Positions 1-38,760 of a stretch of DNA of 38,760 nucleotides are shown here, piece by piece. The stretch covers positions 1 to 38,760 of IMG/VR virus record IMGVR_UViG_3300042868_002039. One strand, given 5' to 3'. The translations under genes and the position numbers were made by a program. Within the stretch, counting starts at the first letter, position 1; every line of letters begins with the position of its first letter. Under the pieces are notes generated by a model. That model saw only the letters and a list, made by a program, of their open reading frames with translations, ran no database searches and was not told where the DNA came from. The DNA comes from a virus.

Positions 1-127
1 GGGCGGCACCACGCATGGCAGGACTACTCAAGACACTGGAACGAGCTTGTCGAGGCTTCTAAGGGCTGCTTAGAGGAATCGCTACATAACCTAAATGGCA
101 TTCGGTCACTTGAGGAATTTGGCGACT
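1..127. repeat. Terminal direct repeat, left copy
   Basis: Bases 1-127 are identical to 38634-38760. An overlap of exactly 127 bases is a common assembler k-mer size, so this is most simply the closing overlap of a circular assembly, not a biological terminal repeat. The non-redundant length is 38,633 bp. Confidence 0.95.
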
Positions 128-192
128 TTGCGGGGATAGACTTTGCAACTCGACAGCTCAAAGGTCATCAGCTGACACATGGCATAGAATAG
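1..192 (+). CDS. 3' part of GT60/PF11397-type glycosyltransferase (continues from 37926-38760)
   Basis: This is the C-terminal end of the gene that starts at 37926. Frame 1 is open from base 1 to the TAG at 190-192, and it is the frame that arrives at 38634, the copy of base 1. The joined protein is about 299 aa, of which the last 63 aa are encoded here. The tail contains a short segment with R-S-L-E-E-F and G-I-D, as I recall from the end of the GlcNAc (PF11397) family. There is no start codon here because the contig was cut inside the gene. See the entry at 37926 for function. Confidence 0.85.
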   Translation, partial: GRHHAWQDYSRHWNELVEASKGCLEESLHNLNGIRSLEEFGDFAGIDFATRQLKGHQLTHGIE

Positions 193-2830: not shown

Positions 2831-3091
2831 TCAGCGTTCGTTCGGTGACGTGCCTCCCCAGATACCGTGGGTCTGGTTGGTTTCTAGCGCATACTCAAAG
2901 CACTTGTCGATAATCGGGCAAGTGTGGCAGATAGCCTTTGCCGTGCGCGTCGCTAATTGTCGGTCCTCTGGATTAGGGTAGTCCTCTGGAAAAAACAGGT
3001 GAGGGTATGTCTCACAGGGAACACCACCGGCCACGTGTATCTCAGATAACAATTTGATAAACGCGCTAGATAAAAGTCCTTGTGACCGCAT
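2831..3091 (-). CDS. WhiB-family transcription factor 2 (short tail)
   Basis: An 86-aa protein on the - strand with cysteines C26, C55-x2-C58 and C64 and the G-I-W-G-G motif at 76-80. It stops six residues after the motif, so it lacks the basic DNA-binding tail found in WhiB 1 and most family members. It may act through sigma-factor contact only, or antagonise WhiB 1. Its start codon lies only about 30 bases from the divergent early operon start at 3121, so the promoters for both directions must overlap. The two proteins share motifs but differ elsewhere, so this is an old duplication or separate acquisition. Confidence 0.88.
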   Translation of the reverse strand: MRSQGLLSSAFIKLLSEIHVAGGVPCETYPHLFFPEDYPNPEDRQLATRTAKAICHTCPIIDKCFEYALETNQTHGIWGGTSPNER

Positions 3092-9163: not shown

Positions 9164-10308
9164 TGCTAGAGAACTTGACACCGGCACAAAAGGTGACCGC
9201 GCCAGCTAACTTTCGCCCGGGCGTTGAGTTTGATGGCACTGAGGGTATTGCTACTACTCCGGGTTACACCGAGGCACCTAACTTCGATCAGTTTCTACTA
9301 GAGGCAGGGTTCGACCCAAGCGAGATTGAGGTTGTTGGTACACCTCGCACCTCACGCTGGCAAAGGTATGACGGCGAATGGCTAACAAGCTATCGCTTTC
9401 AGTTCCGCAAGATTACTGCCGGGATTGACCTGCCACTGCTACTAGCTGAGGCTAAGAAAAAGGTAAAGGTCGAACCGCTGAAGCAGACAAGCGACAAGTG
9501 CTTGGTTGTCATGTGGTCCGACTTACAGGTTGGCAAGGTAGATTACCGCGGCAACTCACAGAGCCTAATTGAGCGCGTAGAACTTATGAAGGCTCGACTA
9601 ATGGACATGATAAAACGAGAGAAGCCAAGCAAGGTAATCTTCGCGGACCTAGGTGATACGGTCGAGAATTTCAATAATGCGGCTGATACCGCCCAGCTCC
9701 AAAGCAGCGATTTGTCGATTATGAGTCAGGTGGATTTGGCCACCACTTTTGCATGGGAGACACTTCGCATGATTGCTACCAAAGTGCCAGATGTCACCTA
9801 TGCTTCGGTTGGCTCGAATCACTGCCAGTGGCGCGTAAACAAGCAGGTAGTCGGCAAGCCATCGGACGATTGGGGCATCTTCATTGGACGACAGCTCGCA
9901 AGACTAAGTAAGGAATTATCCTTACCGATTCGGTTTATCGAGCCTCAAGAGCATGATGAATCCTTAGCCATTGACGTATTCGGTGACGGGTTTCACATTC
10001 TCGGCATTGCGCATGGCCACCAAGCCAAGCGTCCAGACATGATGGCTACATGGTGGAGAGGTCAGGCGTTTGGCCGCCAGCCGGTCGCTGATGCCTCGCT
10101 GCTGATTCACGGTCACTGGCACCACCTACGGGTAACCGAGTTGGGCTCGACACCACGCGGCACATCTCGGTTTATGGTTATGGCTCCAACCATGGACAAC
10201 GGCTCCGGCTGGTGGCGTAAGGTCACCGGTGAGGATTCGGTGCCGGGCTTGGCTACTCTAATCTTGGAAAAAGGCGTGGACTACACGGGAACGGTTTACA
10301 AGCTCTAA
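9163..10308 (+). CDS. Calcineurin-like metallophosphoesterase
   Basis: A 381-aa protein. The two-metal site is laid out in order: S-D-L-Q (119-122), G-D-T (164-166), N-H (219-220), H284-G-H286 and H-G-H-W-H-H (316-321). Residues 1-110 form an extra N-terminal region, perhaps for DNA binding. The family includes phosphodiesterases, nucleases and protein phosphatases. In actinophages such genes lie among DNA-metabolism genes, suggesting nuclease or DNA-processing activity. The substrate cannot be told from sequence. It is coupled at both ends by TAATG. Confidence 0.85.
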   Translation: MLENLTPAQKVTAPANFRPGVEFDGTEGIATTPGYTEAPNFDQFLLEAGFDPSEIEVVGTPRTSRWQRYDGEWLTSYRFQFRKITAGIDLPLLLAEAKKKVKVEPLKQTSDKCLVVMWSDLQVGKVDYRGNSQSLIERVELMKARLMDMIKREKPSKVIFADLGDTVENFNNAADTAQLQSSDLSIMSQVDLATTFAWETLRMIATKVPDVTYASVGSNHCQWRVNKQVVGKPSDDWGIFIGRQLARLSKELSLPIRFIEPQEHDESLAIDVFGDGFHILGIAHGHQAKRPDMMATWWRGQAFGRQPVADASLLIHGHWHHLRVTELGSTPRGTSRFMVMAPTMDNGSGWWRKVTGEDSVPGLATLILEKGVDYTGTVYKL

Positions 10309-10790
10309 TGGCTAATCTAGGCAACGAACAGTCGGTAGCCGGAACTGAGGTATGGCTCACGCCGCCTCACATCCTAGGGGCGCTAGGCGAGTTTGACCTC
10401 GACCCTTGCTCGTCACTAGACCGACCGTGGGATACCGCTAAGAGCCACTACACCGTAGACGATGACGGCCTTATCCAGCCTTGGTTTGGTCGCGTCTGGT
10501 GTAATCCTCCGTATGGCCCAAAGATGGGGCCTTTCCTAGAAAAGCTGGCTGCTCACGAGAACGGGATTGCCCTTATTTTTGCTCGTACAGAAACTAGGGC
10601 TTTCTTTGACTATGTATGGGACAAGGCGGATGCCTTGCTATTCCTGAAAGGCCGACTACGCTTTCACAAGCCAGATGGCAGCCTAGGTGGGACTGCTGGT
10701 AGCCCGTCCGTTTTGATTGCTTATGGGCAAGAAAATGTAAAAATTCTCGAAGAATGCGGACTAGAAGGAAAGTTAGTCAGGTTGAAGTAA
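10308..10790 (+). CDS. Phage DNA N6-adenine methyltransferase (Dam-like)
   Basis: A 160-aa protein with W-L-T-P-P near the start, F-D-L-D-P-C-S, and the catalytic N-P-P-Y-G motif (in W-C-N-P-P-Y-G). This combination defines the phage Dam family (PF05869), which methylates adenine using S-adenosylmethionine. It probably protects phage DNA against host restriction or marks it for packaging or timing. The target sequence is unknown. It has no restriction-enzyme partner here, so it is a solitary methylase. Confidence 0.9.
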   Translation: MANLGNEQSVAGTEVWLTPPHILGALGEFDLDPCSSLDRPWDTAKSHYTVDDDGLIQPWFGRVWCNPPYGPKMGPFLEKLAAHENGIALIFARTETRAFFDYVWDKADALLFLKGRLRFHKPDGSLGGTAGSPSVLIAYGQENVKILEECGLEGKLVRLK

Positions 10791-22573: not shown

Positions 22574-23764
22574 ATGAAAACCTACGAACAACTAAATGGC
22601 GCTGTTGCCCTAGCTTCTAACTCTCCCGGTATGCCTACTGGCTACGGAACTCAAAGCTTGTTACTGGCTGAGCGCATGATTAGGCACGGGCTAAAGTTTG
22701 CCGCGCTTTCTAACTATGGTCTTGAGGGCAGAAACGACACCCTCGACATCGGTGGCACTTCGGTCCCACATTACCCACGCGGCCTAACTCAGTATTCAAC
22801 AGACGTAATGCCGGTATGGACCAAAGACTTTGCATCCAAGCACCCAGATTTAAAGACCGTCCTATTTACGCTTTATGACGTGTGGGTCTACAACAACCTT
22901 GAGTATGACGACCAGATTGTGTCATGGGTGCCACTAGACCACATCACTTTGCCTCCGGGCGTAAACAAGTTCTTGACGCGAGAAAACGTCAAGCCAATCA
23001 CAATGTCGATTCATGGGCAAGAGCAGCTCAACAATGTTGGCATTGAAAACACCTACATTCCTCACGCGATCGACACAACCGTATTCAAGCCGACTGACAA
23101 GATGCCTAATGGTCAAATCGTGCGTGAATATATGTCAGTGCCAGATGATGCTTTCCTAGTCGGCATGATTGCAGCTAACAAGGCCAACGGACAGATTCAT
23201 AGAAAAGCATTTGCAGAAAACCTGTTGGCGTTTGCTATCCACCTAAAGAAATACCCAAACAGCTACCTCTACATTCACTCGGAGCCAAGCAGGGTTTACG
23301 GAGGATTTGACCTAGGCATTCTTTTGCGCATGGTTGGCATTCCACAAGAGAACGTTCTGCTACCAGATTCGTTTGAACTACGCAACGGATTCTCAGACGC
23401 GGCTATGGCAGCCTTTTACAGCGCCTTTGATGTGCTACTAAGCACTTCATACGGCGAGGGATTCGGTATCCCTACCATCGAGGCTCAGGCGTGTGGCACA
23501 AGGGTAATTACAAGCAACTTTGCCGCATCTAAAGACCTAGCATCTGAAGATAGCTGGAAGATCGAGGGTCAGCCGTTCTGGGACGAGCCGCAGTCATCAT
23601 TCTTTCAAATTCCATCTGTAAACAAGATTACAGCGGCGCTAGAAGAGGCTTACAACACCGAACGTGGCACTAGCAAGGTTGCTCGCGAGTTCGCGCTGCA
23701 GTATGACGTTGAAAAGGTTTGGAGCGAAAAGTGGATGCCATTTCTGAAGGACCTTTACAAGTGA
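22574..23764 (+). CDS. GT-B glycosyltransferase (GT4-like)
   Basis: A 396-aa protein with two Rossmann domains. The N-terminal part has S-P-G-M-P-T-G-Y-G, as in GT4 nucleotide-sugar transferases. The C-terminal donor site is S-Y-G-E-G-F-G-I-P-T-I-E-A-Q-A-C-G (about 294-310), with E-x7-E spacing. It transfers sugar from an NDP-sugar to an unknown acceptor. It follows the capsid terminator with no strong ribosome site and forms an operon with the next two genes. It may glycosylate capsid, tail or host surface. Confidence 0.88.
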   Translation: MKTYEQLNGAVALASNSPGMPTGYGTQSLLLAERMIRHGLKFAALSNYGLEGRNDTLDIGGTSVPHYPRGLTQYSTDVMPVWTKDFASKHPDLKTVLFTLYDVWVYNNLEYDDQIVSWVPLDHITLPPGVNKFLTRENVKPITMSIHGQEQLNNVGIENTYIPHAIDTTVFKPTDKMPNGQIVREYMSVPDDAFLVGMIAANKANGQIHRKAFAENLLAFAIHLKKYPNSYLYIHSEPSRVYGGFDLGILLRMVGIPQENVLLPDSFELRNGFSDAAMAAFYSAFDVLLSTSYGEGFGIPTIEAQACGTRVITSNFAASKDLASEDSWKIEGQPFWDEPQSSFFQIPSVNKITAALEEAYNTERGTSKVAREFALQYDVEKVWSEKWMPFLKDLYK

Positions 23765-24408
23765 TTCCGGTATTAGGGTTTGCTACGCTTAGCCGTTTCG
23801 ACATGGCTCAGCGCCTATTGGACTCTATTGACTATCCGGTCGAACACTTGGTCATTGTGGATAACTCTGGCAAGAAGGAGTTTCAGCCACAGGTAAACGA
23901 ACACGTAAAGAACCTCTGGCTGATTCAAGTGCCTCATGGACTCGGTGCTAACGGAGCTTGGAACCTAATTATTAAGTCCACGCCACATGCGCCTTACTGG
24001 GTCATTCCTAATGATGATGCTTACTTTGAACCGGGTGCTTTGGCGACGATTGCCGCTGAGGTAAATACCGAGGCGTTCAATTTCTTAGACATAACTCCCA
24101 AGTGGTCATGCGTGGTGCCGGGCGAGGGCGCTATTGCAAAAGCCGGCCTATGGGACGAAGCATTCCATCCGATCTACTTTGACGACGACGAATACGAATG
24201 GCGTATGGAGAAGCTTGGCGTGGAGTTTCACACAATCAACGCAAAGGTCCAACATGACAACTCGTCCACACTGGCCAGTGGTTACCACGAGCGCAATAAT
24301 GTTACTTACACTCGTAACCATTCGCTATTTACAAACAAAAAGGCAGCTGAAGATACAAGCATCCGAGGCTGGTCGCTCAAGGTCAGAAGGGATAACCGAT
24401 GGGACTAA
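23761..24408 (+). CDS. GT-A glycosyltransferase (GT2-like)
   Basis: A 215-aa protein starting at a GTG that overlaps the upstream stop. The N-terminal beta-alpha unit contains V-I-V-D-N-S-G, and P-N-D-D-A-Y-F carries the metal/nucleotide-binding DxD-like site. F-D-D-D-E-Y-E-W lies in the position of the catalytic base. It is a short single-domain inverting-type enzyme. With the GT-B partner it could build a disaccharide, or each may use a different acceptor. Confidence 0.8.
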   Translation: MIPVLGFATLSRFDMAQRLLDSIDYPVEHLVIVDNSGKKEFQPQVNEHVKNLWLIQVPHGLGANGAWNLIIKSTPHAPYWVIPNDDAYFEPGALATIAAEVNTEAFNFLDITPKWSCVVPGEGAIAKAGLWDEAFHPIYFDDDEYEWRMEKLGVEFHTINAKVQHDNSSTLASGYHERNNVTYTRNHSLFTNKKAAEDTSIRGWSLKVRRDNRWD

Positions 24409-24821
24409 TGGTTTATACAGGCGGGACATTCGATCTAATTCACTCAGGCCATGTGAATTTTCTTCGGGCTTGTGCAGAGATTGGCAGTGTTACCATTGCG
24501 CTGAATACCGATGAATTTATCGCGGAATATAAAGGCAAGCCTCCGGTAATGAGTTACTATGAGCGCTGGAATGTGCTTACTGAATTGAAATGCGTAGACA
24601 AGGTGGTCCCAAACATAGGCGGCACCGATAGCAAGCCTGCTATCGAACAAGTAATGCCTAATGTTATTGCTATTGGGTCCGACTGGGCGCGCAAGGATTA
24701 CTACAAACAAATGGGCTTTACTCAGGATTGGCTAGACGACCTAGACATTTCGCTGCTTTACATTCCATACACTCCCGGTATTAGCACCACAGAATTGAAG
24801 CGCCGCATTCAGGTAAACTAG
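24399..24821 (+). CDS. TagD-like cytidylyltransferase
   Basis: A 140-aa protein with G-T-F-D-L-I-H-S-G-H-V-N-F-L-R (residues 9-23), the HxGH nucleotidyltransferase motif, and G-I-S-T-T-E-L-K-R-R near the end, the I-S-T-T-x-L/I motif. This matches glycerol-3-phosphate cytidylyltransferase and related enzymes that make CDP-linked precursors. It could supply an activated sugar-alcohol or polyol for the neighbouring transferases. AGAAGGGA precedes the ATG, and it overlaps the upstream gene. Confidence 0.85.
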   Translation: MGLMVYTGGTFDLIHSGHVNFLRACAEIGSVTIALNTDEFIAEYKGKPPVMSYYERWNVLTELKCVDKVVPNIGGTDSKPAIEQVMPNVIAIGSDWARKDYYKQMGFTQDWLDDLDISLLYIPYTPGISTTELKRRIQVN

Positions 24822-26732: not shown

Positions 26733-27527
26733 ATGACTATCTTTGGCTCTCTACAAGCCGCTTTTCTCGCAGGCGCGTCGCGTGGCGCTACTACAGCAGC
26801 AAGCATGATTTCATCTGGCAACGTCGCTAGAGTCAGCTATGACCAGTTATACGCAAAAGCAATTAGCGGCATCAAGACCGGCCTAGATGTCAAGGACCTG
26901 CGCAACCTAGAAATTATGCTACGCAAATTTGAGCCAGAGATGCTGGCTAAATTCAAAAAAGATTCAACAAAGCTTGGCGACGAGGCTCGTAAGGCTGTCA
27001 ATAAGTCTTTTAGAGACGTAGACTCCAAAGGTCCGCTAGGTGCGCCAAAGCGTAAAAACAGAAACTTTGACAAGATGTATACGCAAAACGGTCGTGACCA
27101 GAACAGGCTAACTTGGGCGGAGTCTAGATCAAAGCGTAATTCGGTTGATGTGAACTACAAGAGCCGCACTCCCGCTTCGGTCAAAAAGCAGATGTGGGCC
27201 ACGGATAAGACCATTTCGGTTATCCGCGTTCGCGTTCGTGGGGCTGCCTATGTCTTGGCTGATATCGCTAAAAATCCTCGTCAGGCAAATGGTTCAATGT
27301 CACGCCCTTACATGATTAACCGCTATGGTCGCGGACTTGTACCCGGCCAACACCGCATCAGCGAGACTAACGTAAGCAACTGGCTGTCTAAGCTAACCGA
27401 CAAGGGTGGTAGCCCATCTCGTTACGCATGGCCAGCATTTATCAAGCACGCTCCAAAGTATCAAGCAGAATTTAGCGGCATTCTAAATAACATTGTCAGC
27501 GAAACAAACAGAAGGTTGTCAAGGTAA
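26733..27527 (+). CDS. Hypothetical tail/neck protein (possibly HK97 gp10-like)
   Basis: A 264-aa basic protein. The first part has a long helix with D-L-R-N-L-E-I-M-L-R-K-F-E-P-E, as in gp10-like proteins. The C-terminal A-P-K-Y-Q-A-E-F-S-G-I-L-N-N-I also fits that group. The central part is Lys/Arg-rich. A gp10-like protein is otherwise missing between the adaptor and the tail terminator, so it may have moved here. Low certainty. It is coupled to the tape measure by TAATG. Confidence 0.55.
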   Translation: MTIFGSLQAAFLAGASRGATTAASMISSGNVARVSYDQLYAKAISGIKTGLDVKDLRNLEIMLRKFEPEMLAKFKKDSTKLGDEARKAVNKSFRDVDSKGPLGAPKRKNRNFDKMYTQNGRDQNRLTWAESRSKRNSVDVNYKSRTPASVKKQMWATDKTISVIRVRVRGAAYVLADIAKNPRQANGSMSRPYMINRYGRGLVPGQHRISETNVSNWLSKLTDKGGSPSRYAWPAFIKHAPKYQAEFSGILNNIVSETNRRLSR

Positions 27528-30500
27528 TGGCATTACAAGCTCTCGTACTACCTCTAGTATCCGTCTTTAGATCTGCTGGATTTAACGAGGCGATAAAAGC
27601 CCTAAAGGGCCTTGACGGTTCGTTCAAGGATGTAGCTAAGTCTGCAGGTTTCGCCGCAGCTAACTTTGCCGCTGCCGGAGTGCTTCAGAACGTTACTCAA
27701 TACATAGATGAAGCTGTTGTCGTAACTCAAAAGTTTGAACGTAATATGCTTGCCCTAAGCCAAGTGTTTGAGTCAAACACCGGCAAGATGCGCGCGTTTA
27801 CTCAAGAAGCCGTCAATATGGGAATTTCGCAATCCCAAGCGGCTCAGGCTTCGGTATTCCTCGGTTCGGTACTAAAGCAGTACGGTGTAAGCGCCAGTGA
27901 GACAACAACTCAAACCCAAAAGCTTGTAAGCCTATCTCAAGACTTGGCGACGACCTTTGGCTATGACCTATCAGAAGCGCTGACATCAGTAACAGCTCTA
28001 TTCCGTGGTGAGTACGACCCGATTGAGAAGTTCGGTGTTGCTATGAAGCAATCCGAAATCAACGCTCTGTTGGCTGCTAGAGGGCAGGATAAGCTCACTG
28101 GCTCACTTTTGATGCAAGCCTCGGTACAAGCTCGTCTGGACCTATTGTATGAACGCTCAGCGGATGCTTTTGGCGCTTTTGAACGTGCCGGCGACACTCT
28201 ATACGTAGCGCAACAAAAACTAAACGCTGCGCTACAGAATCAGCAGATTGCATTCGGTCAGGGCCTTCAAAAGCCATTGGCAGAAACTACCGATCTGTTT
28301 GCGGAGCTTGCAACAACTTCTACTGACATGATGGAGAGCCTCGGCACCGCTACTGGCAATGCCATCACTCTTTTAAACGGATTCTTGGGACTTATGGTCC
28401 AACTTGCCGATCCAGTAATCGGCGGAGTCAATACCGGCCTAACTATTACTAATAATTTCTTCGAGGTTATGCGTTTACGCATCGAGGCAGCTAATGAAGA
28501 ACTAGAAAAATTCTTAGGACTTAGCCAAGATGAGGGTTTTCTAAAATTCAGTAATGACCTAGCTAATAGCATTGGGGCCGAAGCTGTAGCTGGTAATGCG
28601 CTTGTATGGCTAAATACGCAACTTGAAAACTCCATCTACAACTTTAGAGCGCTAAGTGATGAATATGTAATTACTGATGGTGGTGCAAAGCGAGCTGCTG
28701 TTGCCATGCGTGGTGTCGGTTATGCAGCACGTGACGCGGCCAAGGACGAAGATCAAGCTACGGAATCCGGCAAAAAGCTTGAAGCCATACTAAAGGCCAT
28801 AGGCACGACAGCGGATGCGGCCTCCGGTAGCACTTCTAGTTTGACTAAAGTCTTTAACGAGATTGAAAATGCCGTAGCTCAAAGCGAAGCTAAGACAGCG
28901 CTGGAAGGACTTGGACTTAGCGCAGGGCTAATTGAAAAAGTTCTAACGCAGCCTAATTGGGAAGCAATTTTCAAAAAGATTAGTCGCCTTGCTTACCTAA
29001 CGTCTATTGACCTATCTAAAGTATTTAGCATTACTGCTCTAGGTCAGATTGCAGCCGAAAAAGGTCAAATAGCCGAGTATCTAAGCAACGCTTTCAAAAC
29101 GGAAGAAGCCAAGGGCGGTCCGGCAACTGAAAAGCCTCGCGACACAATCAAAGCATTCTTCAACGAAATGCGCGACGAGGTAAACAAGCAGGCTGCTTCA
29201 ATCAAGCTTGCCGCCATGGGCGCATCTGAGGGCCTTATAGACCTAATCCTTGGCAACGATGACTGGATGAAGCTATGGCTTCAAATCAAGACTGGTGTAA
29301 TCAGCCTTGCCGAGTTGCAGCGCCAATTCAACAGCACCGCTGCTGGAGCTGACGAGCTTGCGGAGGCAATGAAGGCTGCTGCAGATGCTAAAGAAGAAAT
29401 GCTCGCCGGCCTAAACGACAAGCTTGAAGAAGCTACTCAGAAGCTTGCAACCGCAACTGAAGCTGCAAAAGACCTAGAGGCAGCGCTAAAGGGCGCTTCA
29501 ACTATCAGCATTTTGCCAACTGTTGCCAAGGACATCGGGCAATTTGAATCACAGATCCAAGGCGTTGCTTTAAATGTGTCGAAAATTCTCAAAGAGGCTT
29601 TGGACAATGGCAGTTTGCTACAAGCTGACTATGACAGGCTAACTAAGTTCGCTAACGACGAGTTAGCCACCCTTGAAGCTAATGCTAGACAGCGTGACGA
29701 GCTATACAAGAGATACAGCTTTACTGAAAACATCATTAAGGAATATCGCGCTGCCCTTACTGGTGCGTTAAGCCTTACTTCGCTCTTCAACAAGCTGACA
29801 AAAGAAACAGAAAAGCGCACTGTTACCGAAGTCCAGAAGGGCATTGTCAGACTTGGCGATTCTGTCAAGACATTCGGTGTTACTATCTCAAAGTCTTACG
29901 AGGAGAGTATAGACAAGGTAACGGATAAGACCGGTGGTTTGCTAGACGGCTTCCGTAAAATGGCGGAAAAGTCACGTGCATTTGCTCAGAACCTACGCAC
30001 TCTGAAGGAAATGAACTTAGATCCTAAGCTCTTTGCGCAACTGGTAGATGCTGGCGTAGAAGCTGGTGGAGAAACTGCTCAGGCAATCGTAGATGGCGGC
30101 AAGGCGGCCGTAGACGAACTTGGCTCTATTTACAATGACATTGACAAGATCGGTGGCAAACTAGGGCTAGACATGGCACCTACGTTCTACAACGCCGGTG
30201 ACAAGTTGATGGAGAGCCTGCTTTCTGGCATCAAGGCTCAGCAGACAGCCCTCGAGACTAGCGCTAAAACGCTTGCTGCGGCCTTCTCAGCGGCTTTCCA
30301 ATCTAACGTGACCATTGCAGTTCAAGTACCGGTTACAAACGCCTCAAACGCCGTTACAGCCGCAACCAACGCAATTTCAAATGTAAATACTGGCGCAATC
30401 GAGCGCATCAACGCGATGCTTCTGCAAGCTACCGAATACTTCATCTCTTCCGGGCTTACTGAAGAGCAGGTTGCGGATGCAGGTCAGAAGATTGGTGCTT

Positions 30501-30757
30501 ACAACGCTTTGCTGCAGGACCTTATGTCCGGTCAAATAACCGACATCTCTGGCATTAGTGCCGCTATGACTTCAGCAGATCTACGCACTGCAGCTCTAGC
30601 AACCGGTGGAACTAACGTAACCAACTACTACAACGTAGAAGTCAATGCTTCGGGCTATGCTGGTGGTGTGCAGGCAGGTCAGGCAGTCATCGAAGAGATC
30701 ATTAACTTCGAACGTAACAACGGTTCCTCTGGCAGATTCTTGATTCAGGCGCAATAA
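27527..30757 (+). CDS. Tape measure protein
   Basis: A 1076-aa protein, the longest in the window. Long alpha-helical coiled regions, with an early segment S-Q-D-L-A-T-T-F-G-Y-D-L-S-E-A and L-F-R-G-E-Y-D-P-I-E-K-F-G-V typical of phage tape measure proteins. It sets the tail length; by the usual 1.5 A per residue this predicts a tail near 160 nm (rule of thumb). No lytic domain is obvious. It lies after the chaperone and before the tail-tip gene, as expected. Confidence 0.95.
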   Translation: MALQALVLPLVSVFRSAGFNEAIKALKGLDGSFKDVAKSAGFAAANFAAAGVLQNVTQYIDEAVVVTQKFERNMLALSQVFESNTGKMRAFTQEAVNMGISQSQAAQASVFLGSVLKQYGVSASETTTQTQKLVSLSQDLATTFGYDLSEALTSVTALFRGEYDPIEKFGVAMKQSEINALLAARGQDKLTGSLLMQASVQARLDLLYERSADAFGAFERAGDTLYVAQQKLNAALQNQQIAFGQGLQKPLAETTDLFAELATTSTDMMESLGTATGNAITLLNGFLGLMVQLADPVIGGVNTGLTITNNFFEVMRLRIEAANEELEKFLGLSQDEGFLKFSNDLANSIGAEAVAGNALVWLNTQLENSIYNFRALSDEYVITDGGAKRAAVAMRGVGYAARDAAKDEDQATESGKKLEAILKAIGTTADAASGSTSSLTKVFNEIENAVAQSEAKTALEGLGLSAGLIEKVLTQPNWEAIFKKISRLAYLTSIDLSKVFSITALGQIAAEKGQIAEYLSNAFKTEEAKGGPATEKPRDTIKAFFNEMRDEVNKQAASIKLAAMGASEGLIDLILGNDDWMKLWLQIKTGVISLAELQRQFNSTAAGADELAEAMKAAADAKEEMLAGLNDKLEEATQKLATATEAAKDLEAALKGASTISILPTVAKDIGQFESQIQGVALNVSKILKEALDNGSLLQADYDRLTKFANDELATLEANARQRDELYKRYSFTENIIKEYRAALTGALSLTSLFNKLTKETEKRTVTEVQKGIVRLGDSVKTFGVTISKSYEESIDKVTDKTGGLLDGFRKMAEKSRAFAQNLRTLKEMNLDPKLFAQLVDAGVEAGGETAQAIVDGGKAAVDELGSIYNDIDKIGGKLGLDMAPTFYNAGDKLMESLLSGIKAQQTALETSAKTLAAAFSAAFQSNVTIAVQVPVTNASNAVTAATNAISNVNTGAIERINAMLLQATEYFISSGLTEEQVADAGQKIGAYNALLQDLMSGQITDISGISAAMTSADLRTAALATGGTNVTNYYNVEVNASGYAGGVQAGQAVIEEIINFERNNGSSGRFLIQAQ

Positions 30758-32674: not shown

Positions 32675-35017
32675 ATGCCAGCTCATGTGCAAGTCTCTAG
32701 TTCTTGGAAAACCGTTTCAGCCCTTTACACTCGTGTTGGCGGTTCTTGGAAGAATGTAGTTGAAGGCTATACCCGCATCGGTGGAGCTTGGAAGCAGTTT
32801 TTTTCATCTGGTGCTGCACCTCTAAATGTTGATTTTCTAGTCATTGCTGGTGGCGGTGGCGGTGGTGGTGTAGGTGGTGGTGGAGGTGCTGGTGGTTATC
32901 GCACATCAGCGGGAACTTCCGGTGGCGGATCGTCTGCGGAATCTATCCTGAGCCTAACTGCTGGGACAAGTTATACAGTCACAGTCGGTGCTGGTGGAGC
33001 AGGTTCCACTGGCGGTGATGGCTCTGCTGGAACTGCGGGATCCAATTCAGTCTTTGGAACAATTACCTCTACTGGCGGTGGGTTCGGTCGTGGTGGCTCT
33101 AGTGCTGCTGGATCGGGTGGTTCTGGTGGCGGTGCTAGATTCGGTGCTGGTGGTGCGGGCTCATCCGGACAAGGTTTTGCTGGCGGCAATGATGCTTCAC
33201 TCGGCGGTGCTGGTGGTGGTGGCGGTGCTGGAGCTGCTGGTCAAAATGGAACTTCTGCTAAGGGTGGCGATGGTGGTGCTGGCGTAAGTTCTACAATTAC
33301 TGGCTCAGCCGTTACTCGTGCTGGTGGCGGTGGCTCTGGTGGTATTGGCGGAAGCCCGCAGAATCAACCCGGTGCAGGTGGAGCTGGTGGCGGTGCTAAT
33401 GGAAGCACTGGAACCGGAAGCTCCGCATCTGCCAATACTGGCGGTGGCGGTGGCGGCGGTGGCTTTGTTGGCCCTAGCATTGCCTCTAATGGTGGTGCTG
33501 GTGGCTCTGGTGTTGTCATTGTCAAATACCCAAGCATCTACGGCCTAGCTGTCGGAGCAGGTCTAACTGCCTCAACAACTACTAGCGGTGGCTTTAGCGT
33601 CACAACCTTTACCGCTGGAACTGGGTCTGTCTCATTTGGCATTTTATTTACCGTGGACTACTTGGTAATCGCAGGTGGCGGTGGCGGTGGTAGGGATAAC
33701 TACGGCCCAGAAAATCGTGGTGCAGGTGGTGGCGGTGCTGGTGGTTATCGCACTTCAATTGGCACATCTGGCGGTGGGGGTTCTGCTGAATCTGCCGCAA
33801 CCGTAATGGCTGGCACTAACTACACAATTACCGTTGGAGCTGGTGGTCGTGGTGGCACTACTACTAACGATACAGCGGGCGTATCGGGCGCAAACGGATC
33901 CAATTCTGTTTTTGGAAGTATTACCTCAATTGGCGGTGGTGGTGGTGGTGGTCACGGCACAAACTTTGGAACTGCTGGTCTAGCTGGAGGCTCAAGCGGT
34001 GGAACATCAAACTGCATTAGCTCAACAGGTTCTCCAACTGCTAATCAAGGTTTTAGCGGTGGTTGGGACTTAGCTTGTAATTCTCCCTATCACGGATTCG
34101 GTGGTGGTGGGGCTGGCTCTGCTGCTGCAACAAGTTCGTCTACCTCAACTGCTGGTGGTAATGGTGTTGCTTCAAGCATTACTGGCACTAGCGTCACCCG
34201 TGCAGGTGGTGGTGGTGGTCGTGGTGGTTCTAACAATGCTGCCGGTGGGTCTGGCGGCGGCGGTGCGGGAACTGGAGTCGCTGGAACTGTAAATACTGGT
34301 TCTGGTGGCGGTGCTTGTAGAGGTGCAGATGGTGGAGCTGGCGGTTCTGGCGTAGTCATCCTAAGCTACCCATCAACCTACGACATCCGCAACGGTGCAG
34401 GTCTAACCTACACAACCTCTGTCGTAGGCAGCAACAAGGTCACAGTATTCACAGCCGGAACAGGCAACATTCAGTTTGCAACGGCAGCTAATTCTTCATT
34501 CGTTCTGCTAGAGACTGTAACCCTGACCTCTGCTCAGGCATCGGTTGAGTTTGCAAACCTTGCTACAAAGTATGCAAGCACATACCAACACCTCCAGCTA
34601 AGAGTTGTTGCAAGAACCAATAGGGCAGATGTAGGCGATGACATCTTGCTACGGTTCAATAATGACAGCACCGTTGGTAACTACCAATACCACGGGCTTT
34701 ATGGCACGGGTTCGGCTGCTGGCTCAGAAAATGCTCAGACTGCAAGCGGAGCTAGATTTATGCAAGCAGCTGGTGGAAGCTTTACAAGTTCTGCCTTCAA
34801 CGCTGGAGTGTGCGACATTCTTGATCCGTTTGAGACAACCAAGAACAAAACCATTAGAACCTTGTCAGGACTACCCGGTTCTTACAATAGAATTTGGCTG
34901 GCATCAAACCTTTGGATGAACACTACTAGCGTGACGAGCATCACACTTCTGTCAGCGTTCTCGTCTAGCTTTGTTGCTGGGACTCGATTCTCGATCTACG
35001 GTCTGAAGGGAAGCTAA
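32675..35017 (+). CDS. Large Gly-rich tail protein, receptor-binding candidate
   Basis: A 780-aa protein. Residues 1-48 contain three S-W-K / A-W-K repeat units. Residues about 52-285 and 325-565 are two copies of a Gly-rich module, each opening with V-D-F/Y-L-V-I-A-G-G-G-G-G and containing A-G-G-Y-R-T-S. Such Gly-rich folds occur in phage adhesins as polyglycine helix bundles. Residues about 607-780 are a beta domain related to the next two proteins. A host-contact role is likely. The synonymous codons vary, so it is a protein-level repeat. Confidence 0.8.
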   Translation: MPAHVQVSSSWKTVSALYTRVGGSWKNVVEGYTRIGGAWKQFFSSGAAPLNVDFLVIAGGGGGGGVGGGGGAGGYRTSAGTSGGGSSAESILSLTAGTSYTVTVGAGGAGSTGGDGSAGTAGSNSVFGTITSTGGGFGRGGSSAAGSGGSGGGARFGAGGAGSSGQGFAGGNDASLGGAGGGGGAGAAGQNGTSAKGGDGGAGVSSTITGSAVTRAGGGGSGGIGGSPQNQPGAGGAGGGANGSTGTGSSASANTGGGGGGGGFVGPSIASNGGAGGSGVVIVKYPSIYGLAVGAGLTASTTTSGGFSVTTFTAGTGSVSFGILFTVDYLVIAGGGGGGRDNYGPENRGAGGGGAGGYRTSIGTSGGGGSAESAATVMAGTNYTITVGAGGRGGTTTNDTAGVSGANGSNSVFGSITSIGGGGGGGHGTNFGTAGLAGGSSGGTSNCISSTGSPTANQGFSGGWDLACNSPYHGFGGGGAGSAAATSSSTSTAGGNGVASSITGTSVTRAGGGGGRGGSNNAAGGSGGGGAGTGVAGTVNTGSGGGACRGADGGAGGSGVVILSYPSTYDIRNGAGLTYTTSVVGSNKVTVFTAGTGNIQFATAANSSFVLLETVTLTSAQASVEFANLATKYASTYQHLQLRVVARTNRADVGDDILLRFNNDSTVGNYQYHGLYGTGSAAGSENAQTASGARFMQAAGGSFTSSAFNAGVCDILDPFETTKNKTIRTLSGLPGSYNRIWLASNLWMNTTSVTSITLLSAFSSSFVAGTRFSIYGLKGS

Positions 35018-36662: not shown

Positions 36663-37187
36663 ATGGCTGGAGCAGGTTACAGACGTTGGATTGCCGGCGA
36701 GATTATCCGCGCAGCGAATGTTCAACCATACTTGATGGATCAGGTTGTCCAAGTATTTGACAACGCTGCCGCTCGGTCAAGCGCAACGATTAGCTTTGTT
36801 TCTGAGGGCATGATTTCGACCCTTAAGGACGACGACAAGCTATACCGTTACTCAGGCTCGGCATGGCTGGACATTCAGAACACGCCTATCAGCACCATCT
36901 CTGCTTCGGCTACTGCAACTTCGGCCAATGCAAACACCTTGCTAGTGGCTACTGCCGCTGCCACCGTAACCATTCCGGATGTGCTAACCATCGGTGAACG
37001 TATTGACATCGAGCGTGACACATCTGGAACCGTCGCTATTGTGGCTGGAACCGGTGTGACTAGCTGGGGCGGTAATGGCACTGCTGGAACTGCCGTAACT
37101 TTCCTAATCGAGAAGCAATATGGCTACGTTTCGGTAATCAAGACCGCTGCTAACGCTTACAGGGTTATTGGTCGGACAACCGTATGA
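36663..37187 (+). CDS. Tail-tip fibre-type protein, paralogue of the 31991 protein
   Basis: A 174-aa protein after GGAGG. Residues 1-70 (R-R-W, N-V-Q-P-Y-L-M-D-Q-V-V-Q-V-F, L-Y-R-Y-S-G-S-A-W) match the 31991 N-terminus. The second half is a T/A/V/G-rich beta domain ending G-Y-V-S-V-I-K-T, like capping domains. It is probably an additional tip or fibre protein. The stop overlaps the ATG of the Thr-rich gene. Confidence 0.75.
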   Translation: MAGAGYRRWIAGEIIRAANVQPYLMDQVVQVFDNAAARSSATISFVSEGMISTLKDDDKLYRYSGSAWLDIQNTPISTISASATATSANANTLLVATAAATVTIPDVLTIGERIDIERDTSGTVAIVAGTGVTSWGGNGTAGTAVTFLIEKQYGYVSVIKTAANAYRVIGRTTV

Positions 37188-37492
37188 TTCCTCTAGCCAT
37201 TCTTGAGTGGCCGGATCCTGCGACAACCACTACCACTACAACTACAACCACGACTACTGGTGGTCCTACTACTACCACTACTACGACTACTACTACAACG
37301 GCTGCTCCAACAACCGAAGGCCCTACACCTACGCCTACTCCAACAACCGAAACACCTACATCTGGAACCCCAACTCCGACTCCAACCACAGCCGCTCCGT
37401 GTAATTGTTCCCGCTTCGACAACCGATGCCCACCGGAATTTATCGCAACTTGTGATGAAAACTGTAACTTTACTGGCATTTGTTTGGGATAA
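37184..37492 (+). CDS. Mucin-like Thr/Pro-rich protein with Cys-rich C-terminus
   Basis: A 102-aa protein. Residues 14-25 are twelve consecutive threonines, followed by G-G-P and eleven more (29-39). Residues 43-70 are Thr/Pro-rich. Residues 73-100 hold six cysteines (73, 75, 82, 90, 94, 100), possibly three disulfides or metal ligands. All four Thr codons are mixed in the runs, so the Thr content is kept at the protein level. Such tracts are typical O-glycosylation targets. A polypeptide-GlcNAc-transferase-like gene lies three genes downstream. The ATG overlaps the previous stop; there is no signal peptide. It is probably a virion or tail-tip component. Confidence 0.8.
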   Translation: MIPLAILEWPDPATTTTTTTTTTTTGGPTTTTTTTTTTTAAPTTEGPTPTPTPTTETPTSGTPTPTPTTAAPCNCSRFDNRCPPEFIATCDENCNFTGICLG

Positions 37493-37501
37493 TATTTCAA
37501 T

Positions 37502-37705
37502 ATGACTACACGAGTATTTGCTTTCATCGCTGATGGCGATGTCTTTATGCGCTTTCATTTAAGCGACAGTGCGGCACCTCAAAACGCTGGCTACATCGCT
37601 GGACTACAGAGCAATCCGCAGGTTGTAGATGTAACTGACATAAACCTACCTATTGAGCAGGGTTGGACTTATGACGGTAAAAACTTCAACCCACCGGCTG
37701 AATAA
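37502..37705 (+). CDS. Small hypothetical tail-region protein
   Basis: A 67-aa protein with F-A-F-I-A-D-G-D-V-F near the start and W-T-Y-D-G-K-N-F-N at the end, a pattern shared with small proteins of aquatic phages. The start is 9 bases after the Thr-rich gene. Function is unknown; it is probably co-expressed with its neighbours. Confidence 0.65.
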   Translation: MTTRVFAFIADGDVFMRFHLSDSAAPQNAGYIAGLQSNPQVVDVTDINLPIEQGWTYDGKNFNPPAE

Positions 37706-37932
37706 TGTCGGCTTGGCAAGAGTATAAAAAGAAACTAGGTGCTACTCGACCTTGGGACTTGCTCGACCCTAATACTGAGTATGTAGATAAGGCTGAAGCT
37801 GAAGCTCGCCTAAACATCTGCCGTGAATGTCCGTTTTTCATTAAGAACACTCAGCAGTGTAAAGAGTGCGGTTGCTTTATGAATCTAAAGACCAAACTCA
37901 AACTGGCTGAGTGTCCACAGCACAAGTGGTAA
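37705..37932 (+). CDS. Small Cys-rich zinc-binding protein
   Basis: A 75-aa protein. Four clusters, C-R-E-C-P, C-K-E-C-G-C, and a final C-P-Q-H-K-W with K-T-K-L-K-L-A-E before it, form a compact zinc site. Similar proteins with A-x-C-P-x-x-K-W ends occur in aquatic phages and bacteria. The role is unknown. It is coupled by TAATG and overlaps the glycosyltransferase start. Confidence 0.7.
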   Translation: MSAWQEYKKKLGATRPWDLLDPNTEYVDKAEAEARLNICRECPFFIKNTQQCKECGCFMNLKTKLKLAECPQHKW

Positions 37933-38760
37933 GCATCTTTATACAGATTTCGGCTTATCGAGATCGGGAACTGCAAAAGACCATTAAGGACGCTATCGCC
38001 AAGTCCAGCGGTCAGTATGAGCTGAAATTCGGTGTTCACGAACTAATAGCCGAAGATGACGAAGTAGTAGACCTCGGTGTGCCAACTCTAACTTCAGTGG
38101 CTCCAGAAAACCTAGGGGTAAACGCCGGTCGCTATCTTGCTAACTCTCTGTATGACGGCGAGGACTATTACTTTCAGATTGACTCGCACATGCGCTTTGT
38201 TTATCACTGGGATTCGGTAGCTGTTGCCGGCATCAAGTATTACCAAAGCCAAGGTATAGCCAAGCCACTTATGACAATGTATCCGGGCAACTTTTGGTAT
38301 GAAGATGGGGTAGAGAAGTTTGACTCCATTCAGAACTTTACGCCGACGCTAATCTCATTTCACGAAAAGCCGCAGCAGCTTGTAGACACTATGGCTCCAT
38401 CTCAAATGGCCAAGCCGACATCTTTAGCGTGTGCATACACTTACAGCGTTTCCGCGGCCAACATCTTTACTTTGGGAGAGTTCGCCAACCTGCCCCGTGA
38501 TACCCGCATTATGTTCTGGGGCGAAGAGATACTGACAGCTGCTACCGCATTCTGCCATGGCTTCGACCTAGTTGTTCCGACCGGGCCTTTGGTGTGGCAT
38601 TTATACCACTCTGGGCAGTCCTACGAGGCGACTGGGCGGCACCACGCATGGCAGGACTACTCAAGACACTGGAACGAGCTTGTCGAGGCTTCTAAGGGCT
38701 GCTTAGAGGAATCGCTACATAACCTAAATGGCATTCGGTCACTTGAGGAATTTGGCGACT
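37926..38760 (+). CDS. GT60/PF11397-type polypeptide GlcNAc-transferase-like glycosyltransferase
   Basis: The GTG at 37926 overlaps the previous stop and the frame is open to the end, then continues at base 1 (192 more bases). The joined product is about 299 aa. The GlcNAc family signature is clear: I-F-I-Q-I-S-A-Y-R-D near the start, the metal-binding D86-S-H88 in Q-I-D-S-H-M-R-F with W-D following, and W-G-E-E-I ... G-F-D-L-V-V-P-T-G near residue 200. Members include alpha-GlcNAc transferases acting on Skp1 hydroxyproline and on threonines of trypanosome mucins (CAZy GT60). The donor cannot be fixed from sequence. The Thr-rich protein three genes upstream is an obvious candidate acceptor. 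Confidence 0.85.
   Translation, partial: MVSIFIQISAYRDRELQKTIKDAIAKSSGQYELKFGVHELIAEDDEVVDLGVPTLTSVAPENLGVNAGRYLANSLYDGEDYYFQIDSHMRFVYHWDSVAVAGIKYYQSQGIAKPLMTMYPGNFWYEDGVEKFDSIQNFTPTLISFHEKPQQLVDTMAPSQMAKPTSLACAYTYSVSAANIFTLGEFANLPRDTRIMFWGEEILTAATAFCHGFDLVVPTGPLVWHLYHSGQSYEATGRHHAWQDYSRHWNELVEASKGCLEESLHNLNGIRSLEEFGD
38634..38760. repeat. Terminal direct repeat, right copy
   Basis: Identical to bases 1-127. It carries the same coding frame as the left end, so the reading continues smoothly. It marks the assembly join. Confidence 0.95.

Follow-up and report, generated by a model that had tools for sequence, protein, structure and literature searches.

A PF11397-family glycosyltransferase beside a threonine-rich protein in a phage tail operon: a candidate mucin-type O-glycosylation module

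The window, that is, the whole 38,760-nucleotide stretch of viral DNA analysed here (IMG/VR record IMGVR_UViG_3300042868_002039), contains a tailed-phage structural block comprising terminase, portal, prohead protease, major capsid, and tape measure genes. The Thr-rich ORF and the transferase considered below are located where the tail operon ends, downstream of the fibre-like genes, a placement consistent with the Thr-rich product being a tail component. The features are as follows:

22574..23764, + strand: second glycosyltransferase, group 1 type (PF00534, E 1.4e-8; phrog_2170, E 8.9e-41)
23719..24408, + strand: third transferase, GT2-like (galactosyl transferase PHROG phrog_29879, E 8.4e-33; Pfam GT2 below cut-off)
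24399..24821, + strand: cytidylyltransferase-like enzyme (PF01467, E 1.1e-15; phrog_7878)
27527..30757, + strand: tape measure protein (phrog_1535, E 5e-13)
32675..35017, + strand: Gly-rich fibre-like protein of the same operon (PF21722, E 1e-30; phrog_2295)
36663..37187, + strand: structural protein directly 5' of the Thr-rich ORF, overlapping its start (ATGA)
37184..37492, + strand: Thr-rich mucin-like ORF, 102 aa, proposed acceptor
37223..37399, + strand: Thr/Pro tract of the 102-aa ORF (aa 14-72)
37400..37489, + strand: Cys-rich C-terminal module of the 102-aa ORF (aa 73-102, 30 aa, 6 Cys)
37502..37705, + strand: 67-aa ORF between the Thr-rich ORF and DUF6171, with a weak PHROG match only
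37705..37932, + strand: DUF6171 small protein (PF19668, E 4.1e-9; phrog_13558, E 2.7e-18; alignment)
37911..38760, + strand: PF11397 glycosyltransferase, first 283 aa (PF11397, phrog_24687, predicted fold)
38181..38189, + strand: D-S-H codons (aa 91-93) of the transferase, proposed metal/donor-binding DxH motif
128..192, + strand: 3' end of the transferase gene, past the 127-bp overlap of the contig ends (304 aa in all)

The contig begins and ends with the same 127 bp (window 1-127 and 38634-38760). Therefore, the transferase gene crosses the junction and encodes 304 aa, and the preliminary description was wrong in ending it at 38760. Assemblers often use a k-mer length of 127, so these ends probably reflect circular overlap in the assembly and not a genuine terminal repeat. 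The contig probably represents a closed genome of some 38.6 kb. Two adjacent WhiB-like genes (2484-2804 and 2831-3091, both on the minus strand) suggest an actinobacterial host; WhiB-like genes also occur in records L035, L013, L014, and L028. A Dam-type DNA N6-adenine methylase gene was found at 10308-10790 (+).

The transferase matched the PF11397 profile with 108.7 bits (curated cut-off 21; E 5.7e-31) and phrog_24687 with an E-value of 4e-25, which places the family assignment far above its threshold. As the preliminary description had noticed, it is the third gene downstream of the Thr-rich ORF and carries the Q-I-D-S-H hallmark, here at aa 89-93. In an alignment of 30 sequences, the invariant residues included Q89, D91, H93, W100, D101, E206, and H230. 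The predicted structure (pLDDT 92) is a compact globular domain of GT-A type without an extra membrane segment. In the fold search, the top solved-structure matches were ppGalNAc-T enzymes (E about 1e-8), with the wall teichoic acid modifiers TarS and RmlT also ranking high; thus, the prediction agrees with the fold expected of the family. A sequence search identified no related solved structure. A DNA search of a phage collection with the module returned nothing, and protein searches of it yielded no matches beyond three jumbo phages, with 25-27% identity; the XacN1 homologue gene lies among replication and metabolic genes, without tail-gene neighbours.

The 102-aa ORF begins with a short hydrophobic N-terminus, continues with the Thr/Pro tract, and terminates with the Cys-rich end. 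The tract comprises T12 (aa 14-25), GGP, T11 (aa 29-39), and TP repeats to aa 72, so that the two Thr runs and the Cys-rich end described earlier are both present, and aa 14-72 form a long Thr/Ser/Pro-rich tract of the kind that marks a mucin domain. Profile searches gave neither a Pfam nor a PHROG match for this ORF. The ending ...CD(D/E)NCN(W/F)TG(V/I)CLG is shared with L028. Thr accounts for 8.4% of residues in 15 other window genes, where the longest Thr run is 3, and the chance expectation for runs of at least 11 Thr in 12,000 aa is about 1.5e-8. The Thr codons of the ORF (17 ACT, 10 ACA, 8 ACC, and 4 ACG) are mixed in the same way as in the genome's other genes (chi-square p = 0.42), which confirms the varied synonymous codons reported before and argues against a recent triplet expansion. 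A pure low-complexity artefact was ruled out as the origin of the tract by this codon mix together with the locus controls given below.

The protein encoded at 36663..37187 matched phrog_21978 (E 3.5e-8) and the virion structural protein family phrog_18179 (E 5.5e-4); in L003 and L013, its counterparts matched minor tail and tail fibre families. A small ORF similar to the 67-aa ORF occupies the same place in L028. The DUF6171 protein has a conserved Cys pattern that resembles a zinc ribbon in the alignment. In 37 of 41 clade representatives, its gene is found no more than 3.5 kb upstream of the transferase, in 25 of them directly adjoining it; the gene is also widespread without the transferase. 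In L026 (8985-9998), L057 (9115-10002), and L315 (10905-11879), members of a related gene family adjoin the transferase and may encode a further enzyme belonging to the module; the one in L026 matches DUF7164. Further upstream in the window, the second glycosyltransferase adjoins the major capsid gene and is a possible glycan-extending enzyme, and the cytidylyltransferase-like enzyme is possibly involved in sugar-nucleotide synthesis. The arrangement at 22574-24821 (+), just after the major capsid gene, looks as if the capsid were glycosylated too.

For the co-occurrence analysis, a first scan collected 80 viral loci with transferase relatives, and one locus was scored per 80%-identity cluster; a Thr tract was defined as at least 40% Thr in 30 aa on the same strand. 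Of the 20 discovery clusters, 14 had a Thr tract in the 2.5-kb bin immediately upstream of the transferase, with 0-2 in the other 2.5-kb bins. Under the same rule, new clusters from a second scan gave 19/21, again with 0-2 in other bins. Thr tracts accompanied none of 5 distant viral homologues and 2 of 50 bacterial homologues. Loci anchored on DUF6171 and on the tail gene phrog_7759 served as controls for the same tail niche. The tract occurred in 6/9 DUF6171 loci with the transferase versus 4/36 without it (p = 0.0016), and in 6 of 50 phrog_7759 loci that lack the transferase. These controls therefore answer the objection that such phage tails simply carry Thr tracts. Pooled with the window left out, 31 of 38 clusters had the tract (Fisher p = 5e-10 and 3e-11 against the two niche controls and 9e-15 against bacterial homologues, values that overstate independence, as the clusters share descent). 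Thus, the suggestion that the two genes occur together above chance in related phages was clearly borne out, with a replicated, position-specific association and low niche controls.

The tract carriers ranged from 102-aa ORFs to 2278-aa fibres, and since the tracts sit in such different carriers, the link does not come down to a single inherited gene pair. Seven clusters were scored as tract-less; six of them (L003, L009, L010, L036, L056, and L285) still carry a Thr/Pro tract, though a shorter one, or else a tract that is rich in Pro and has a Cys-rich end. L343, a clade member, showed neither a tract nor a tail context. At least three Cys within 60 aa after the tract were present in 34/37 transferase-linked tracts versus 14/73 random viral poly-Thr tracts, which suggests, at the sequence level, a stalk with a Cys knob. 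The tract-associated transferases group in a single clade (99/95 support) that contains phage sequences only and excludes the bacterial homologues. In L296, an 848-aa Thr-tract protein lies upstream of the transferase, and its C-terminal part appears by eye to be intein/Hint-like (CVEENTLVDTPNGQIPVKNLQVGDVIW).

In the reverse direction, 2 of 120 poly-Thr loci in viral contigs carried the transferase, and among longer poly-Thr records, one of 37 had a PF11397 match. The proposition that poly-Thr implies PF11397 was accordingly rejected; the association is one-way, and the tract does not need the enzyme. Poly-Thr tracts are thus a frequent feature of viral contigs that lack PF11397 (L083-L202), and most have no Cys-rich end.

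We propose that the tail operon probably holds a phage-encoded mucin-type O-glycosylation module, in which the PF11397 enzyme puts HexNAc on Thr residues of the adjacent stalk. The in silico support consists of the enzyme family, the predicted fold, the motif conservation, the recurrent linkage, and the stalk-plus-Cys architecture; the acceptor, the sugar, the virion location, and the purpose of the Thr-rich product are what we infer. The soluble enzyme, with its predicted GT-A-type fold and DxH motif, would act in the cytoplasm of the infected cell before tail assembly. By analogy with the enzyme family, the transferred sugar would be an N-acetylhexosamine, most likely GlcNAc taken from host UDP-GlcNAc, and the targets would be Thr side chains in the adjoining Thr/Pro-rich tract. 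The product would be a stiff, protease-resistant, glycan-covered stalk bearing the Cys-rich knob on the tail, and stalk and knob may aid in reaching or binding the host. Other transferases, such as those beside the capsid gene in the window and a GT2-TPR gene present in four relatives, could extend the glycan.

Several other readings of the locus were weighed. The transferase might modify another virion protein, such as the Gly-rich fibre or Cys-rich knobs, leaving the Thr tract as a flexible linker or spacer. Thr-rich linkers without this transferase are indeed frequent, and the same operon holds other tail proteins; however, it is the tract itself, and no particular carrier protein, that recurs beside the transferase, and the tract is rare in the niche controls that lack the enzyme, so we regard this reading as unlikely. 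An enzyme that alters the host surface, for instance wall teichoic acid, and thereby excludes other phages or changes the serotype, could be imagined from the TarS and RmlT fold matches. Nevertheless, ppGalNAc-T structures come first in the ranking, the model lacks an extra membrane segment, and the gene is tied to tail genes with Thr tracts, which makes such a role very unlikely. Glycosylation of phage DNA was judged highly improbable: DNA-modifying phage transferases are known (cited in PMC12619734), but neither the window genome nor any of 29 related records, many of them fragmentary, gave a match to the PF00303 thymidylate synthase/hydroxymethylase family, searched as a source of hydroxymethylated bases, and the Dam-type methylase was the only DNA-modifying gene seen. 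Similarly, viral contigs often have low-complexity tracts, and a low-complexity ORF might lie near an accessory transferase by chance; the replicated, position-specific association and the negative controls contradict this reading, which we consider extremely improbable.

The remaining alternative is that, like Skp1 Gnt1, the transferase glycosylates hydroxyproline, here in the section of the tract that contains Pro. The hydroxyproline enzyme belongs to CAZy GT60 (PMC6939170), where it is described as cytosolic and acting on a hydroxyproline of Skp1. In addition, the lineages with TP- or PPP-type tracts (L042, L036/L039, and L056) have a 2OG-Fe(II) oxygenase in the cassette. In the L042 cassette (L042:8228-10906), it lies between DUF6171 and the transferase, with prolyl 4-hydroxylases as its best solved-structure matches; L042 also carries a radical SAM/SPASM gene. 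This link covers about two independent lineages, was noticed post hoc, and serves as a lead only; it hints that the Pro-rich variant may be a second, hydroxyproline version of the module. For the window itself, the hydroxyproline reading is distinctly unlikely: the tract is mainly Thr, 28 of 36 Thr-rich clusters have no 2OG oxygenase nearby, and a profile search found no PF13640 2OG oxygenase anywhere in the window genome that could act as a prolyl hydroxylase before the transferase, although a host hydroxylase is possible. Separately, clusters of 2OG-Fe(II) oxygenases, with 6-10 matches per record, were seen in L291, L296, L301, L286, L051, L059, L003, L037, and L091.

Thr-linked modification of the adjacent stalk by the PF11397 enzyme is therefore the reading that we compare with known systems. 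GT60 enzymes initiate mucin-type O-glycans with GlcNAc in the protists Dictyostelium and T. cruzi (PMC8724618), and in T. cruzi mucins the GT60 enzyme acts on Thr of a Thr-rich protein (PMC3769586). The phage enzyme resembles these UDP-GlcNAc:polypeptide alpha-GlcNAc transferases (CAZy GT60; TcOGNT-2, Gnt2) in its PF11397 profile family and in the Thr-rich acceptor proposed here; in contrast, those are eukaryotic Golgi enzymes, and the phage enzyme is predicted to be soluble and is encoded in a tail operon. In family, and in being soluble and cytosolic, the phage enzyme as proposed here matches the related Skp1 enzyme (PMC8724618), and the Pro-rich phage variant adds a prolyl-hydroxylase-like neighbour. 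Skp1 Gnt1, however, targets one Pro on a ubiquitin-ligase subunit rather than long tail-protein tracts, and its system needs a hydroxylase, of which the PF13640 search gave no counterpart in the window genome. The animal ppGalNAc transferases (GT27), which start mucin-type glycans, provide the nearest solved structures to the phage model, but share only about 10-14% sequence identity with it, and their ricin-like C-terminal domain (PMC8724618) has no room in the 304-aa phage protein.

Serine-rich-repeat adhesins are encoded next to GtfA/GtfB. They likewise combine a hydroxyl-rich low-complexity stalk with their own glycosyltransferases at one locus, but they are cellular, use other transferase families, and contain Ser instead of Thr. 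In mycobacteriophages (Che8 and relatives), capsid and tail-tube subunits are glycosylated (Freeman et al. 2023, cited in PMC12619734 and PMC11256854). The likeness lies in phage-encoded glycosyltransferases and in glycans on virion proteins; according to PMC12619734, those glycans are on the C-termini of the capsid and tail-tube subunits rather than on a dedicated mucin-like stalk, and the passages on them there name no PF11397 enzyme. The preliminary description had held that a phage glycosylating its own tail component would be novel. In this general form, the claim is anticipated by the published mycobacteriophage virion glycans; what appears to be new is the mucin-type enzyme together with its dedicated stalk. 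In the freely accessible literature searched, we found no relevant report on phage PF11397/GT60 enzymes or on Thr-rich phage tails.

More tentatively, the phage-only PF11397 clade may represent widespread mucin-type O-glycosylation of virion stalks, Thr-linked as in the window and hydroxyproline-linked in the Pro-rich lineages. If so, the two phage versions would mirror both eukaryotic branches of the family, and a mucin-like pathway would exist in bacterial viruses. Mucin-type O-glycosylation is usually regarded as a feature of eukaryotes. If phages make their own mucin-like tail stalks, they would offer a compact enzyme-acceptor pair to study, phage transferases now filed as accessory genes would gain a new role, and a testable explanation would exist for part of the Thr-, TP-, and Pro-rich tracts in phage tail proteins.
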